A stretch of 64,000 bases of DNA, taken from contig MTMD02000001.1 in the NCBI GenBank assembly GCA_002010065.2, positions 1 to 64,000 on the forward strand, read 5' to 3'. The position numbers and the translations under genes were made by a program. The stretch's first letter is position 1. Each line of letters begins with the position of its first letter. Shown here one piece after another: positions 6,236 through 12,531 of this stretch. This stretch comes from Candidatus Pyrohabitans jungbluthii (lineage in GTDB: Archaea > Hydrothermarchaeota > Hydrothermarchaeia > Hydrothermarchaeales > BMS3B). Below the pieces are notes generated by a model, which saw only the letters and a list, made by a program, of their open reading frames with translations, ran no database searches and was not told the origin of the DNA.

Positions 6236-6345
6236 AGCTTGGGGTTAAGCGTTTCGGAAATATAAAGGCTGTGGTTGGGTGGGGTGTGGGTAGAGGATAT
6301 GTAGTAGTAAGCACTAAACAGTTATCATAGTGAGGGATTATCCTT

Positions 6346-7599
6346 TTACATTCTCTTTTTGATTTCCTTAAAAGTCCAGATATTGTGAAAACCTCTCCGT
6401 TTATTACGATTACTCCCCCTAAATATAACAACGTGAATACCAATATCTTTGCATATATCACAGTTACAAGTTTCCCATGGCTTATCTTCCAAGGTTCTGC
6501 GATATTTTTCCTCTAGATTTCTCCCATCTGTATTTCGAAGAAGAAGTTTGTCGTATCTTAACACTATATTTAGTACATCATCTATATCAATTTCCCCTCT
6601 TTCATATTTAATTAATGCACTTAAAGCTTCTCTTTCCATTTTTTTGAGTTCTTCAACAGAAAAACCATTTAAATCTGCATTTTTTAAGACTCTTGGGTCT
6701 GTAGCTTGAGGCACTCTTATGGCAGTATACCATTTACCATTTGGTGCCAGATAGTTTTGTCCAGACCTTAGCCACGCTTTGCGAAAGAATGAAGCACTGT
6801 CAAAGCTTGTCACACCCAACGTCTCAAAATCTTTCAAATGATTTGGCCTCGAAATACCAAACAAATGAACATTTAATCCATCAACAAATGGTTGAATCTC
6901 TTGTAAAACTTCTAAAATGAAGTCTGTTGTATATTGGACAAGCCCACCAATGCCGATATATTCATAGCCCATATCAACCAGAGCTTTAACAGAGCTTTTG
7001 TATGTTTCTAAATCATATCCCTGAGCTACACCTACTGGAATAAAACTATATTTATTTTCCCTGTGTAATTTCAAAAATTTTTTTGCATTTTTTATTGTAA
7101 TTTTAATCCTACGATTTTTTTCTCTTTTAGATAAGATTTTCTTTTTTCTTTTACCTGTTTTCTTGTCTCTAACAAAGATATAGTCTACAACCAAGTGATC
7201 AACTGAGACTCCATAATCAAAACCCAATTTTTCATATAAATTTGATACATTCTCTACAGTATAAAATGGCGGTGGTTCTTTTTCTTTTACGTACCCAAAT
7301 GCCCCACAATCACCCATAACCACCAACGACAATTCTTCTGGAATCTTTAAGTAATTTTTTATATTTGTCTGGTTTCTTATCTTATAATGGACACCATCAC
7401 CATTTAAAGATATCTTTGATTGAAATACGCTTAAACTAAACAAAATTCCGTCATAAGGAGGCTCTTTAAATATTTGATGAGCATATACATCATTTTCATA
7501 GGGATTTTTTTTATGTTCTTCAGAATATTCATCATTAACAAAATCGAAGTTTGGATCTAACCTGTCTTCCCAATCAGGCAAAAAATATTTTAGTTTCAT
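6346..7599 (-). CDS. dpdA: DpdA-like tRNA-guanine-transglycosylase family protein (putative DNA 7-deazaguanine insertion)
   Basis: A 417-residue TGT-fold protein. Seen: an Asp in GDCGAF (Asp97) at the place of the TGT general base; PVGVAQG (188-194) and IGIGGL (215-220), matching the substrate-binding loops; the nucleophile motif SFDSASF (Asp267); and a C-terminal zinc site C378-x-C380-x2-C383...His405. The SFDS-a-S motif and the GFD-GVSVDH stretch resemble DpdA, which swaps guanine for preQ0 in DNA, more than archaeal TgtA, which is longer and carries a PUA domain. It is the last gene of a four-gene operon, 10 nt after the nuclease. No preQ0 synthesis genes are in the window; an archaeal host making archaeosine would supply preQ0 (inference). 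DNA rather than tRNA as substrate is inferred from motif similarity and context. Confidence 0.75.
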   Translation of the reverse strand: MKLKYFLPDWEDRLDPNFDFVNDEYSEEHKKNPYENDVYAHQIFKEPPYDGILFSLSVFQSKISLNGDGVHYKIRNQTNIKNYLKIPEELSLVVMGDCGAFGYVKEKEPPPFYTVENVSNLYEKLGFDYGVSVDHLVVDYIFVRDKKTGKRKKKILSKREKNRRIKITIKNAKKFLKLHRENKYSFIPVGVAQGYDLETYKSSVKALVDMGYEYIGIGGLVQYTTDFILEVLQEIQPFVDGLNVHLFGISRPNHLKDFETLGVTSFDSASFFRKAWLRSGQNYLAPNGKWYTAIRVPQATDPRVLKNADLNGFSVEELKKMEREALSALIKYERGEIDIDDVLNIVLRYDKLLLRNTDGRNLEEKYRRTLEDKPWETCNCDICKDIGIHVVIFRGSNRNKRRGFHNIWTFKEIKKRM

Positions 7600-7609
7600 A
7601 ACTATCCAC

Positions 7610-8815
7610 CTATGGTACTGTTGGATGATAAGGTCCTCCTGATTTTTCTATTTGGCTATTAGCCCCTCTACAAAATGTCTTAAAATCACATGTCGTACAA
7701 TTCCTTTTAAGTGGATTTGAATACCAGGAAGAGGTTATAGGATTGCCATTCATTTCAGATAAAACACTATTTTCAATTTTTCTGACCACCCTATCGAATT
7801 CTTGAAGAGCATTTTGAATTCGACTTTTATCAACTGGGATTATTCTAATTGATCTCTGTTCTCTGAATAACGTAGAAAGCTGAGGTGGAAAAGTATTTTT
7901 TTCCCAATCTTGAATCAACTGTAGGTCTAATCCCTGAGGCATTACATCTGTTGCATTATTCCTTACATCATTTTGGAGTTCTTTCATATCTTCTTGAGAT
8001 GGTGCCAACTCATTAATATAAAATATTATTCCCGCAACAACTTCTCGAGACTGATGTTGTCGCTTACGAAGCCATGCATACGTAAGTATTTGCCACTCAT
8101 GATACTCCCATGACGGATCTTTTGAAGAAGGTCTCCTCATACCTTTATAGTCGATTATTATTTCATACTCTGGAGATGACAGTCTCTTTATTATATTTTG
8201 TAATTGAGAATTTTGATGGAGATAATGTAAAATTAAATTCCCAGAGGGAGCGTTTTGGAGATTTACAGAACTTATTACGTCTATGACCCCTGTAATTCCA
8301 TAATAGTTACACCTATCTCTTGGCTGATAGTCAGGCATATCACGAATCCCTCTTAGTCTCACCTCTGCCTCATCAATTAATGGAAATAAATGAGGGCCCC
8401 AGGTATTAATTGCTGCCTCTGCCCTTTGACTTGCGATCAATTTATGTGGATGATTTGGATCGGGACATAAACCTGGGCGTGAAAAATTTGTATCATATGG
8501 ACAAAAAACCCGTGGCGGTGGATTTAACCCTCTTGCTTTTAATCTTCGATTTATTCGTAGTTCAATCTCTCTGATTTCAGAGTCCCATCTCCATGGAAAC
8601 TTTCTTTTTAGTGAATCCTGATGCCACTCAAGAAAAGCTTCTTCCATAACACCATGTATAAATTCCCCAAACCATATCTGGACAGGTTTAGATGGTGGCA
8701 GAGAATTTCTGTTATGGAGTCTATATTGAAGTCCACACGTTAAGAATGCCAACAAGTCTCCAGTTAGACTGTATTCAGGAATTTTATATGGTGGTTGATT
8801 TACAGATAGTGGCAT
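7610..8815 (-). CDS. PD-(D/E)XK nuclease, Cas4/AddB-like with Fe-S cysteines
   Basis: A 401-residue RecB-family nuclease. Seen in order: an N-terminal cysteine (LTCGLQYRLH), the His motif FGEFIHGVMEEAF, the catalytic IIIDYKG (D-x-K), the W..HEWQILTYAWL (Q-x3-Y) motif, and a C-terminal C-x2-C-x5-C. The last three cysteines plus the first match the 4Fe-4S 'staple' of Cas4 and AddB nucleases. An internal Cys/His-rich insert lies near residues 105-125. The start has a strong GGGAGGTGAG just upstream and lies 12 nt after the helicase stop. Paired with the UvrD-like helicase it resembles an AddAB-type helicase-nuclease. Confidence 0.8.
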   Translation of the reverse strand: MPLSVNQPPYKIPEYSLTGDLLAFLTCGLQYRLHNRNSLPPSKPVQIWFGEFIHGVMEEAFLEWHQDSLKRKFPWRWDSEIREIELRINRRLKARGLNPPPRVFCPYDTNFSRPGLCPDPNHPHKLIASQRAEAAINTWGPHLFPLIDEAEVRLRGIRDMPDYQPRDRCNYYGITGVIDVISSVNLQNAPSGNLILHYLHQNSQLQNIIKRLSSPEYEIIIDYKGMRRPSSKDPSWEYHEWQILTYAWLRKRQHQSREVVAGIIFYINELAPSQEDMKELQNDVRNNATDVMPQGLDLQLIQDWEKNTFPPQLSTLFREQRSIRIIPVDKSRIQNALQEFDRVVRKIENSVLSEMNGNPITSSWYSNPLKRNCTTCDFKTFCRGANSQIEKSGGPYHPTVP

Positions 8816-8827
8816 ACTCTCACCTCC

Positions 8828-11230
8828 CTAAATATGAATTATGTTTGGAAGACCTCTACCCCATCTCCAGTTACCATTCCTATCCCAACCAGTAGCTATA
8901 TTGGGAATCTCTTTCCTACCGATTTTCTTAAAATACCCATTTCTTACACTATTTAGGCCTACAAGCATTAAAACATCTCGTGCTCTGCTAAATGCCACAA
9001 AATATTGCCTTATTAGGTCATCAAATGCTCTATCTATGGCATGCCTTTGGGGCGTTCCTAGAGGGGAATAAGGTCTTAATTCCTCTTCCATATTTACACT
9101 ACTTATTCTATCAACCCTTCCTACTCTATTAAGTCTAGGAAATCTTTTAAATGCATGTGCATAATGGTTTTCCCTAAAATCTGAACCAACATCTACAATC
9201 ACTAATGGAAATTCTAGTCCTTTCGCTTGATGTATAGACATTATATTTAATCTATTTGAGGGTATTGTTTCAAGAAGGTCTTCATTAATTTCAATAGTAC
9301 CGGTAGCAATCGGTACAAAAATATTCCATAACGCTTCTCTTATAGACGACTCCGAACGTGAGTCACTCGGGTCAAATATTATCTGTCCTCCAAAATTACC
9401 GATTAGCCCTGCTTGATTAATCGTTCTTGTTATCGCTTCCAAGTAAACTAAACCTTCAATATCATCTTGCATCCGTGGTATCCACGTAACTAACTTATAT
9501 ACCAAGCTTATTAGTGGAACTTCTGGATCTACTCTATCCTCTCTTCTTAAAAGAATCCTCCTATTTTGCCATGCATCAACAAACTCTCTAAGCGTCGGAT
9601 TATGAGGTGGTGGATTAGTGTCGATATAACTTCTCGCTACATCCCTCCACTCATTAAAAATAGAAACCACATTACGTGGTAAATTCAACATGTTTTGTAC
9701 ATTTTCATTTGGATCTATACATTCTAAAATTAAACCACAAAGTTGTTGAACTTCTGGGGTTAGCTCTAAGTTTTGTCCTCTTGGATTAAAAACTTGAATT
9801 GGAGGAGATAACTGACTTAATTCATCTCGTAATAATCGCGGAAGTCTTTGTCTTCCCCGTGAGTCAAATTCACGAGGAGAGCTACAAAGCACAGCAATAT
9901 CTCCCGGGCCACCCCGATTAGGGTCAATTTGTATATTATATTGTCCATGAGAATCTTGAATTTGAACGCCTCCTCCATATATAACACTATGAATGAACCG
10001 AGCGAGATCATGTGCGAGTTCTTCAACGGTATCTCTAAACATGCCAAGTATGGGGTAATTATCGTATGGTTGAGAACGTGCTGGAATAATATGTGGTTTA
10101 TTTTGAACCCTCGCATTCTGATAATGCTGGTCTAAAGTGATAAAATTATTACAAAAATCTACTATATTACTTGTAGACCTATAATTTCTGGAAAGATTGA
10201 TTGTTTGAGGATTAGCACGAAGATTATCACTTATTCTATTTCTAAATTCTTGAAACAGATCAACTGTAGCTCCACGAAACCGATACAAAGACTGATCATC
10301 ATCTCCTACAACAGTAATACTTCCACCATTTTCTAAAGCTGCCCTTGCCATTTCAAAATATATCTGTTCTTGAAGCAAATTTGTATCTTGGTATTCATCT
10401 ATAAGTATAAACCTAAGTTGTTGAAGGAATCTATTTAGTGCTCCATCACGAAGCCTGTTCAGAAACTCTTGCTCTAACAATGCAAAATCAAAAAGACCTC
10501 TACTATTTAATTCATTAAGGTAATCTTGAATAGTGTCACATACAACTGGAATACCTGAGTGGCTTAAACTATTTCTGAACTGAGACACATCTACTTGATC
10601 GTGGAAGAACCTATCTTTTATCTCACATAACATTTCAGCTGCTTTATCAGGCTTCAAATTGCTCCTTGAAACTAAACCAAAACTACTACCATTCAATTGT
10701 ACGAGATAATCTCTGAGATCCCTATTTCTAAATCTTCCATGATTGAAAAGTTGTCTTACCATTAAGCCCTTAGATACGAAACTCTCTATAACGGCTGGTA
10801 GTTTGTCTCCTGGTGCACGATAATCTCCTAAAATTTCTTCTGCAATACTATCTATTGTTCCAATAATTACCCTGCTTAAATCTAAATTCTCTAATTGATT
10901 TCTAATATGGTTATCATAAGAAAAATCTTCTCTAAACTTGCGGATTAGCTGGTCTCCCCATCCCAAGATTCTCGATCTTAATTCTGCTGCCGCTTTTCTG
11001 GTAAAAGTCGTTACCAAAATGTTAGAAGGTTCAATATCATCCACAAAGATCAATTTTAATACTCTTAATGCAATTACGGTTGTTTTGCCACTACCTGGTC
11101 CGGCAACAATAAATAAGGACTGATTTAGAGGTGCTCTTATTGCTCTGTTTTGATCCGGATTGCTATTACTTCTAATATCTCTGTCGAGTTGATTAACGAC
11201 AGCACTCTCAAAATCATACCAACTAATCAG
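8828..11230 (-). CDS. UvrD/PcrA-type superfamily 1 helicase, apparent CTG start
   Basis: An 800-residue helicase if translation starts at CTG 11230. Seen: motif I AGPGSGKTT, Ia VTTFTRKAA, II LIDEYQDTN, III VVGDDDQSLYRFRGA, IV LSRNYRST, V MSIHQAKGLEFP and VI QYFVAFSRA, so the ATPase is complete. The first conventional start codon in frame (TTG at 11053) would delete Walker A, so the true start is upstream. GGAGGT lies 6 nt before the CTG, and CTG overlaps the TGA stop of the upstream gene as CTGA. No UvrD-like C-terminal nuclease is fused; the separate nuclease downstream probably supplies it. UvrD/AddA enzymes unwind DNA 3'-5'. Confidence 0.85.
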   Translation of the reverse strand: MISWYDFESAVVNQLDRDIRSNSNPDQNRAIRAPLNQSLFIVAGPGSGKTTVIALRVLKLIFVDDIEPSNILVTTFTRKAAAELRSRILGWGDQLIRKFREDFSYDNHIRNQLENLDLSRVIIGTIDSIAEEILGDYRAPGDKLPAVIESFVSKGLMVRQLFNHGRFRNRDLRDYLVQLNGSSFGLVSRSNLKPDKAAEMLCEIKDRFFHDQVDVSQFRNSLSHSGIPVVCDTIQDYLNELNSRGLFDFALLEQEFLNRLRDGALNRFLQQLRFILIDEYQDTNLLQEQIYFEMARAALENGGSITVVGDDDQSLYRFRGATVDLFQEFRNRISDNLRANPQTINLSRNYRSTSNIVDFCNNFITLDQHYQNARVQNKPHIIPARSQPYDNYPILGMFRDTVEELAHDLARFIHSVIYGGGVQIQDSHGQYNIQIDPNRGGPGDIAVLCSSPREFDSRGRQRLPRLLRDELSQLSPPIQVFNPRGQNLELTPEVQQLCGLILECIDPNENVQNMLNLPRNVVSIFNEWRDVARSYIDTNPPPHNPTLREFVDAWQNRRILLRREDRVDPEVPLISLVYKLVTWIPRMQDDIEGLVYLEAITRTINQAGLIGNFGGQIIFDPSDSRSESSIREALWNIFVPIATGTIEINEDLLETIPSNRLNIMSIHQAKGLEFPLVIVDVGSDFRENHYAHAFKRFPRLNRVGRVDRISSVNMEEELRPYSPLGTPQRHAIDRAFDDLIRQYFVAFSRARDVLMLVGLNSVRNGYFKKIGRKEIPNIATGWDRNGNWRWGRGLPNIIHI

Positions 11231-11697
11231 TATATCACCTCCACTTCTCTATTTATTTTGTTGAGCCAATTCTTTAGTTGATGGAGTCTTTCCCCAATTT
11301 CTCCGGTTGCCCAGTACACATTTTGTTTATTAAGAACCCTTTTACCTCTTTCCAACGCAAGCATATACGTTTTACCGAGATTTACAAACACTTCTTTATA
11401 ATTATTATTTTTCAATGCATTTATTAATTTAATTTCAATTTCATTTGCTAATTCTTTCGCTCTCTCGATGGTCATCTTTTGATCATAATTTGAGATAGTA
11501 TCATTTTGTCTGATCAACCCATATTTTGCTGAAAGTATCAATATATCCAGATTATTTGGCATATTTTTTCGTAGTACACGATAGAACGGTCCATCGTATA
11601 ATTCAATTGCAGGGGCTTTTGAAATTGGCTTCTTTCGCTTTGAACAAGGTAAAATGATTAAATACTTCTTACTTTGGCTAACATTATTCTCGTCCAT
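11227..11697 (-). CDS. DUF6884 family protein, first gene of the DpdA operon
   Basis: A 156-residue protein with the DUF6884 pattern: IILPCSKRK near the N-terminus, AIELYDGPF, ILSAKYGLI, a following YD, and FVNLGKTYM. The N-terminal PCS-x-x-K motif recalls the PCS-x-KPY motif of the archaeosine synthase ArcS, which acts on preQ0 in tRNA; whether it has a related role here is inference. Function of the family is not established to my knowledge. The ATG at 11697 is preceded by GGTGGTAGAAA. Its last codons contain the Shine-Dalgarno sequence for the helicase, so the two are translationally coupled. Confidence 0.7.
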   Translation of the reverse strand: MDENNVSQSKKYLIILPCSKRKKPISKAPAIELYDGPFYRVLRKNMPNNLDILILSAKYGLIRQNDTISNYDQKMTIERAKELANEIEIKLINALKNNNYKEVFVNLGKTYMLALERGKRVLNKQNVYWATGEIGERLHQLKNWLNKINREVEVIY

Positions 11698-11719
11698 TTT
11701 CTACCACCTAACGACTTTC

Positions 11720-11738
11720 CGTTATGTTCATGATAACG
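11720..11738. promoter_or_regulatory. Palindrome upstream of the DpdA operon
   Basis: CGTTAT and ATAACG flank a 7-nt spacer, about 22 nt before the start of the first operon gene. It could be an operator for a repressor or a leader hairpin. No regulator gene is seen in the operon itself; the orphan VapB-like protein nearby is one candidate binder. No clear TATA box was recognised in the AT-rich region upstream. Confidence 0.4.
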
Positions 11739-11873
11739 TACATCAACCCCTCTGATTATCTCTACACCTCCCAAACAATTAGATTAATTTTCTGATAACA
11801 GACCACTGATATAAAATTCTTTCCATTTATTGGGTGCTGTGAAGTTTATAACGTTCGAACTCGGTTTTTCCTT

Positions 11874-11951
11874 CTATTGGTCTGGGAATTCTCCCAAGCT
11901 TTGACGCACCCTTGCGTGGTTGTAGTACAAACCAAACAGCCGCAGGAAGTT
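11874..11951 (-). pseudogene. Transposase C-terminal remnant
   Basis: A minus-strand frame of 25 codons ending in TAG reads NFLRLFGLYYNHARV then RQSLGEF. This is the characteristic end of DDE transposases of the IS6/IS240 and related types (YN-x-x-R-x-x-x-SLG). No start codon or catalytic core is present; upstream in frame there is a stop at 11970-11972. The sequence beyond, GGGTGCTGTGAAGTTTATAACG at about 11834-11855, may be the old terminal inverted repeat. It lies between the DpdA operon and the VapB-like gene and marks past transposition at the island edge. Confidence 0.65.
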
Positions 11952-11964
11952 GGACACACATACT

Positions 11965-12207
11965 CTATCTTATAACATCTGCACGGGAAGTACTAATCAA
12001 TACCTGCTGTTTTTTTGCTATACTTTCCTTAACCTCTAATGCTAATTTATTAGCCATATCCTCACTTAATTTGCTCTTTGATACTATATCTCGAGCAACA
12101 GTCCATTTAACTTCATCAAAGAACTTCTTTAGAACACTGTCTATAGCTTTTTCAAATTTGTCCTGCATCCCCTCAGGCACATCCACCTTTATTACAATCT
12201 CACCCAT
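11965..12207 (-). CDS. Orphan VapB-like antitoxin
   Basis: An 80-residue charged helical protein starting MGEIVIKVDVPEGM, typical of archaeal VapB-type antitoxins of PIN-domain toxin pairs. ATG 12207 is preferred because GGTGGAG lies before it; an ATG at 12234 would add nine residues. The expected vapC downstream is missing: the transposase scar starts right after its stop. The protein may therefore be a survivor of a broken toxin-antitoxin pair, its C-terminus possibly altered by the insertion. Another intact VapBC pair is at 45.4 kb. Confidence 0.55.
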   Translation of the reverse strand: MGEIVIKVDVPEGMQDKFEKAIDSVLKKFFDEVKWTVARDIVSKSKLSEDMANKLALEVKESIAKKQQVLISTSRADVIR

Positions 12208-12531
12208 CTTCTCCACCTGCTTAATATTTAACATTTTAACCTTTAAAAATAAATCTTAAATATGAATTAAAATAAAAAATAATTATAATTAGCATAATTT
12301 TTAGAGAAATTTGTAAGATTACATTATTTATTATATTCTTAATTATTTATCATTCTTTGTTTATGAATTAACCAAGAATCTTGGGGTTATTTGGAATAAG
12401 CGTGTAGTCAATCCGCCTGACCTCAACAACCTTCTCCATTTTTCATCCTCATTCTATAAATAAACCTCCTGACTTATTAATCATTTTTGAGGTGCTCCGC
12501 CTTAGCGACGTTACACCCCTCTCTTACTTAA
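12208..12531. other. AT-rich intergenic region at island border
   Basis: About 320 bp with very low GC, lying between the divergent VapB-like and radical SAM genes. It holds a possible TATA box for the antitoxin (CATATTTAAG on the minus strand, near 12255), a short minus-strand frame at 12368-12439, and GC-richer sequence from about 12480 that belongs to the radical SAM promoter. No conserved RNA or repeat was recognised. Confidence 0.5.
12368..12439 (-). CDS. Possible 23-residue ORF, function unknown
   Basis: ATG at 12439 to TAA, encoding a peptide beginning MEKVVEVRRIDYTL. An AGGAGG lies about 30 nt upstream, too far for an ideal ribosome site, with GAGGATG closer. The start resembles the opening strand of small antitoxin-like proteins, so it may be a truncated gene. 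Weakly supported. Confidence 0.25.
   Translation of the reverse strand: MEKVVEVRRIDYTLIPNNPKILG

Follow-up and report, generated by a model that had tools for sequence, protein, structure and literature searches.

The Dpd system of Salmonella Montevideo (dpdA to dpdK) comprises up to eleven genes, uses preQ0 as precursor and normally requires DpdB together with DpdA. It forms a horizontal island in which modification is linked to helicase and nuclease functions, the restriction arm consisting of YprA/SNF2 helicases and a PLD nuclease. According to the part of PMC12839542 that summarises the Dpd system, DpdC converts dPreQ0 to dADG; the same article describes DpdB as dispensable in some clusters. 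DUF6884 is given as the domain of DpdC in a published survey (PMC11888242), and because this survey required dpdA plus dpdB, clusters lacking DpdB would have escaped it. Other described systems share single traits with Dpd. BRIGADE, a haloarchaeal hybrid of Dpd and ARMADA (PMC12458937), joins 7-deazaguanine biosynthesis genes to restriction-like effectors in archaea, with a PD-(D/E)XK nuclease in some members; YprA-like helicases, as a rule two of them, are its defining feature, and all reports of it come from halophiles. BREX-Related Capture (BRC) with TGT (PMC12839542) combines a TGT/DpdA homologue with a DNA motor (HerA/FtsK) and BREX components, without DpdB or DpdC. AddAB and RecBCD unite a UvrD-family helicase with a RecB-family Fe-S nuclease.

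Here we analysed a 64,000-nucleotide stretch of DNA from Candidatus Pyrohabitans jungbluthii (contig MTMD02000001.1, positions 1 to 64,000; hereafter the window). It contains an operon of four genes, all on the minus strand, that spans 6346-11697. A literature search that covered the main Dpd papers in part returned no description of this four-gene combination. The features of the locus are as follows:

6279..12501, no strand: acquired AT-rich insertion of about 6.2 kb; contains the operon together with the scar of a transposase gene and an orphan antitoxin
6346-7599, minus strand: predicted DNA-guanine transglycosylase DpdA, 417 aa (NF041059, PADLOC DpdA and PDB 7ui4 matches)
7610-8815, minus strand: PD-(D/E)XK nuclease of AddB/Cas4 type with a predicted 4Fe-4S cluster, 401 aa (PDDEXK_1, motifs, AF2 fold)
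8828-11230, minus strand: UvrD/AddA-like helicase of superfamily 1 (800 aa), starting with CTG at 11230 (UvrD-helicase and AddA matches)
11227-11697, minus strand: DUF6884/DpdC-like protein, 156 aa (DUF6884, DUF5591, YaaA and PADLOC DpdC matches)
11852..11960, minus strand: scar left by a transposase gene (3' end), encoding SNFLRLFGLYYNHARV; 77% DNA identity of 11852-12000 to L158
11965..12234, minus strand: orphan antitoxin-like ORF, 89 aa, with homology to a sister genome starting at 12000

Coordinates, strand, gene order and spacing agreed with the original prediction, as did the complete catalytic motifs it had reported: intact motifs were found in each of the four genes. The DpdA and nuclease genes are separated by 10 nt, the nuclease and helicase genes by 12 nt, and the helicase and DUF6884 genes overlap (-4 nt), with the CTG start of the helicase falling within a CTGA that overlaps the DUF6884 stop. 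In the homologues L052 and L054, the aligned codon is ATG ('ATG ATT AGC' versus 'CTG ATT AGT' in the window). Thus, the CTG start is supported and the -4 nt coupling is real, though the codon is unusual.

The DNA of the operon had been described as AT-rich and unlike its flanks, and the GC content is indeed 31-41% inside versus about 50-57% in most flanking kb. In the sister genome G004 the site is empty. Its left flank (to window position 6278) abuts the right flank (from window position 12502), so the operon sits in a 6.2 kb insertion, with a Trp/Tyr-type tRNA synthetase gene on one side and a radical-SAM gene on the other. In the sister genome G001, the right side of the same interval contains a homologue of the small antitoxin-like ORF and, after it, a gene for a PIN-domain toxin, while in G002 the interval contains an AAA_14/DUF4143 ATPase gene; together with the empty site of G004, this identifies a site of varying cargo. 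The operon was acquired horizontally. We found no convincing terminal or direct repeats bounding the insertion, and its content is four genes plus remnants only, the DpdD-K operon being absent.

Beside the operon, the original prediction had noted an orphan antitoxin as well as the scar of a transposase, and both were recovered. Positions 11852-12000 have 77% identity to DNA of the sister genome G003 that encodes the C-terminal end of an integrase-core-like ORF; this ORF matches Pfam rve_3 weakly (E 0.003). On visual inspection, the peptide SNFLRLFGLYYNHARV from the scar can be aligned with the L158 ORF, and the host's own genome holds no second copy of the scar sequence. The antitoxin-like ORF has 95.6% DNA identity to G001 C52; the G001 homologue is followed by a PIN_2 toxin gene, which the window lacks. 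These comparisons support its reading as an orphan that has lost its toxin.

DpdA scored 443.8 bits against the NF041059 DpdA equivalog (cut-off 200), matched the PADLOC DpdA model (E 4.5e-130) and aligned over residues 2-409 with a solved DNA-guanine transglycosylase (PDB 7ui4, 3.5e-86). Alignment A1 shows no variation in its zinc motif CxCxxC...H or in the conserved Asp residues. The Tgt and ArcTGT equivalogs gave 28-33 bits, below their cut-offs of 47.6-350, and no full-length match. Grouping of DpdA with tRNA TGTs had been named as a result that would refute the original prediction. It does not group with them: the DpdA equivalog and 7ui4 match over the full length, and the TGT models weakly. 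Assignment to the DNA-guanine transglycosylase class is strongly supported by these alignments. As a single-sequence query against the genome and viral contigs, P0001 gave no matches; an alignment was required.

Besides QueC and PTPS/QueD, the host's own genome encodes further members of the TGT family that serve tRNA, as well as two proteins, each with a match to one part of the ArcS model. Therefore preQ0 is probably made and supplied by the host, and tRNA modification is probably independent of DpdA. One of the TGT genes (G000:C2:385654-386715) encodes a 408 aa protein with a very strong PF01702 match, besides a 656 aa TGT; the host may have queuine-type plus archaeosine-type TGT enzymes.

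The DUF6884 protein (P0003) matched the DUF6884 profile at 3e-15 (57 bits versus a cut-off of 30), the ArcS-related DUF5591 at 2.6e-6, YaaA at 6e-7 and PADLOC DpdC at 3.9e-7, and a DpdC profile built here matched residues 27-86. This DpdC-likeness covers a short region at modest E-values, in a protein of half the DpdC length. Both motifs of DUF6884 (PF21818), CxxxK and LSAxxG, are present and conserved; the Pfam paper gives them as the likely active site (PMC11701544). The AF2 model (pLDDT 93.1) found its best PDB match in 2q07, AF0587, and a PDB sequence search returned chance matches only. The protein thus shares motifs, DUF5591 and YaaA profile matches and an AF0587-like fold with the DpdC/ArcS/YaaA superfamily, but it is a 156 aa stand-alone domain.

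The original prediction had recognised no classical Dpd partner except DpdA. We rejected this reading: with DUF6884 being the domain of DpdC and P0003 recognised by DpdC models, the operon contains two of the classical Dpd parts. The protein had also tentatively been placed before DpdA in the pathway, and this order should be reversed, since it most likely acts afterwards, on the inserted base, as DpdC does.

With Dpd, the operon shares the DpdA family, a DpdC-type DUF6884, probably the preQ0 precursor, linked helicase and nuclease functions and location on a horizontal island. In contrast to Dpd, it has four genes, lacks DpdB and DpdD-K, carries a UvrD/AddA-like helicase with a 4Fe-4S PD-(D/E)XK nuclease where Dpd has its restriction arm, and belongs to a compact type that occurs in archaea as well as bacteria. 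The DpdB (DGQHR/DndB-family) ATPase gave no match over cut-off in the whole own genome, and a profile search of the compact loci likewise found none, although strongly diverged forms could escape it. None of DpdD-K lies in the insertion, and the scored classical genes were absent from the compact loci by profile search. Because DpdB and DpdD-K were looked for and not found, we did not file the operon as canonical Dpd. It also differs from BRIGADE, as the insertion holds no YprA-like helicase and its sole helicase is of UvrD type. BRC resembles a few of the loci described below in pairing a DpdA homologue with a DNA motor (L061, L063, L064); however, we saw no BREX genes at the DpdA loci examined, and these nearly always carry DUF6884.

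A profile scan for DpdA yielded 488 relatives; the best 80 were kept and 79 distinct loci were scored. The surveyed loci are the closest DpdA relatives rather than a random sample, and many are metagenome bins for which single host assignments may be wrong. DUF6884/DpdC is adjacent or fused to DpdA in 73 of the 79 loci (fused in 41), and fusions occur at either end of DpdA (e.g. L110, L055). UvrD and nuclease genes are both present in 27 of the 79, and 20 of these 27 contain none of the six classical genes scored within the locus stretch (DpdB, D, E, H, J and K). The order DUF6884-UvrD-nuclease-DpdA was found in L052, L054, L056 and L057, and with one extra gene in L041; L058, L059 and L062 have the order UvrD-nuclease-DUF6884-DpdA. 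Four Aquificota loci (L065, L066, L074, L092) show DUF6884-UvrD/nuclease-DpdA, with helicase and nuclease separate or, as in L066, fused. Overall, the gene set recurs in further archaea and at loci from Chloroflexota, Aquificota and Bacillota, and its order is often preserved. A lack of such co-occurrence had also been named as a refutation, but the four genes are found together in many unrelated genomes. The four-gene set is more than chance, and the operon is one instance of a widespread modular arrangement, not a local oddity.

The product of the extra gene of L041 (L041:10806-12464, G064), which lies between nuclease and DpdA, is a GmrSD_N (DUF262) protein; it contains a DGQQR motif and is possibly a DpdB-like substitute. 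Many bacterial loci have a second, short DpdA-like protein of about 300 aa beside the main DpdA (for example L033:6147-7082, L034:13317-14264, L035:14212-15135, L069, L071 and L085). A YhhQ-type (Vut_1) transporter gene adjoins the DpdA set in L054:11330-12022 and L090:8217-8918, which suggests preQ0 uptake. In Asgard-type archaea (L042, L094, L096, L122), the genes for DpdA and DUF6884/DpdC are transcribed divergently, and within 10 kb there is neither a UvrD or nuclease of the family nor a scored classical dpd gene.

Plasmids were searched as well. With the nuclease as the only query, 3 of 72,556 records matched. All three belong to the 26 DpdA-encoding records, and in them about 3-10 kb separate the two genes. 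Matches to the helicase over at least 80% of the query were found in 10 records; 7 of these encode DpdA, two of them 26-39 kb away. A Bradyrhizobium plasmid carries queD, queE, dpdB and dpdA directly beside a UvrD and PDDEXK pair, and on a Halobaculum plasmid queC, folE, queE and a PTPS gene stand directly beside the helicase-nuclease pair.

In a comparison of 27 loci, uncorrected for host kinship, pairwise identities of the four proteins correlated within the pairs DpdA-DUF6884 (Mantel rho 0.64) and UvrD-nuclease (0.77), while values across modules were 0.06-0.13. At least 9-12 changes of the UvrD label are required on the DpdA tree. The strong covariation within pairs and the scant covariation between them therefore point to a marking module and an exchangeable restriction module, and the operon would have moved horizontally as these two units. 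A HerA (DUF87) and NurA-like pair is found instead of the UvrD-nuclease pair in L061, L063 and L064 (NurA match weak in L061), and in addition to it in L068 and L070. On a phage contig with terminase, portal and helicase genes (L160:2641-4520), the DUF6884 and DpdA pair occurs without UvrD-nuclease, as expected if these two proteins alone form the marking, protective part. The IMG/VR contig L161 has all four genes.

The helicase matched UvrD-helicase at 2e-35 and AddA at 3.1e-33, with AddA/PcrA profiles closest, and the motifs GPGSGKTT (Walker A), DEYQDT and QAKGLEFP were read directly. The nuclease matched PDDEXK_1 at 4.2e-13. Its motif GxxD...DYKG...QxxxY is invariant at D179, D222-Y-K224, Q242 and Y246; among the Fe-S cysteines, C27 is invariant and C373, C376 and C382 are near-invariant. 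The PD-(D/E)XK catalytic residues and the four cysteines are kept across long and short nuclease subfamilies. In fold, the AF2 model of the nuclease (pLDDT 83.8) matches both ACE1, which is Cas4-like, and the nuclease domain of AddAB. The pair thus resembles AddAB/RecBCD in protein families and fold. However, the window proteins are small and separate, lack an AddB helicase-like domain and are coupled to DNA-modification genes. P0004 has helicase domains only and P0002 a nuclease domain only, which differs from the AddAB architecture (AddA with a C-terminal nuclease, AddB with a helicase-like domain).

Related pairs were also seen in other surroundings. On a Nostoc plasmid (L174:1-13829) a short-form UvrD and PD-(D/E)XK pair directly follows DISARM drmA to drmC. 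An archaeal locus (L143:7705-17926) has a UvrD-nuclease pair between type III R-M mod/res and a 302 aa DpdA-like protein. In the case of the nuclease homologue in L142 (G177), the contig ends at the helicase.

Taken together, we consider the operon a compact Dpd-like modification-restriction system, with a probability of roughly 0.74. It is well supported as a unit, and its proposed function is as follows. DpdA would exchange guanine in DNA for preQ0 from the host QueC/QueD pathway. The DUF6884/DpdC-like protein would then act on the nitrile of the inserted dPreQ0 through its CxxxK site. By analogy with DpdC, dADG is the most likely product, and a lysine or amidine adduct as with ArcS is possible. 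The helicase and the 4Fe-4S nuclease would form an AddAB-like unwinding nuclease, the sole restriction arm in the insert, that degrades unmarked DNA but leaves marked self DNA intact or stalls on it. The original prediction, in which DpdA marks and the helicase-nuclease destroys unmarked DNA, is supported as an overall interpretation; the identity of the base, restriction and defence are what we infer. Pairing of helicase and nuclease is likewise supported, and the pair would also discriminate the mark. Against this reading stand the absence of DpdB, the short and modest DpdC match of P0003, the presence of the helicase-nuclease family beside DISARM and type III R-M genes, and the Asgard loci that have DpdA and DUF6884 but no such pair. 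The weakest step of this mechanism is which component reads the mark.

It is at this step that the most serious alternative differs. DpdA and DUF6884 would still mark DNA, and the UvrD-nuclease pair would be an effector or repair helper that degrades ends in general, clearing DNA that something else has already broken, and does not itself read the mark. Since the same helicase-nuclease family accompanies DISARM and, beside a short TGT-like gene, a type III R-M pair, it may be such a general end degrader. Its occurrence within larger dpd clusters that hold further restriction genes, the AddAB fold match and the low cross-module covariation are consistent with this. However, an end degrader needs another maker of ends, and our profiles found no other known-dpd-type nuclease in the compact loci, for which reason we favour the helicase-nuclease itself as mark reader. 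In many genomes it is also tightly coupled to DpdA, by overlap or spacing of a few nucleotides. We therefore regard a pure end degrader as possible but rather unlikely.

A domesticated viral modification cassette, which shields, or once shielded, the DNA of a mobile element from restriction and uses the helicase-nuclease for replication or recombination of the element, appears improbable. The marking pair of phage contig L160, the four genes of L161 and the transposase remnant within the insertion fit such an origin. However, the 6.2 kb insertion has no virion or replication genes, the clear phage contig L160 lacks UvrD-nuclease, and the set recurs on cellular contigs of many phyla with no phage genes recognised nearby.

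The transposase scar, the orphan antitoxin and the non-ATG (CTG) helicase start might also indicate a decayed, inactive remnant of an operon. This is very improbable and we rejected it, given four open frames with complete, intact catalytic motifs and a spacing conserved with distant homologues. That DpdA acts on tRNA and its link to DNA enzymes is incidental is hardly credible: it belongs to the TGT superfamily (PF01702, 1.7e-8), but tRNA TGT models match a core segment weakly (about 30 bits) versus the full-length DpdA equivalog and 7ui4 matches, the own genome has other tRNA TGT-family genes, and the helicase-nuclease link recurs.

Returning to the modification-restriction reading, the chances are about even that such loci constitute a distinct and widespread class of DpdB-independent base-replacement restriction in archaea and bacteria. 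This class would combine a DpdA-DpdC marking module with interchangeable UvrD/4Fe-4S-nuclease or HerA-NurA modules, the AddAB-like processive nuclease itself reading the 7-deazaguanine mark. If this is true, self-marking by base replacement would need two enzymes only and no DpdB, and it would work in archaea and be combinable with different DNA-degrading machines. The four-gene model would be small enough for reconstitution and for asking how a nuclease distinguishes 7-deazaguanine from ordinary DNA. Finally, a testable role, the processing of nitriles in DNA, could be given to many DUF6884 proteins that at present carry labels such as 'unknown' or 'YaaA-like', phage ones included.
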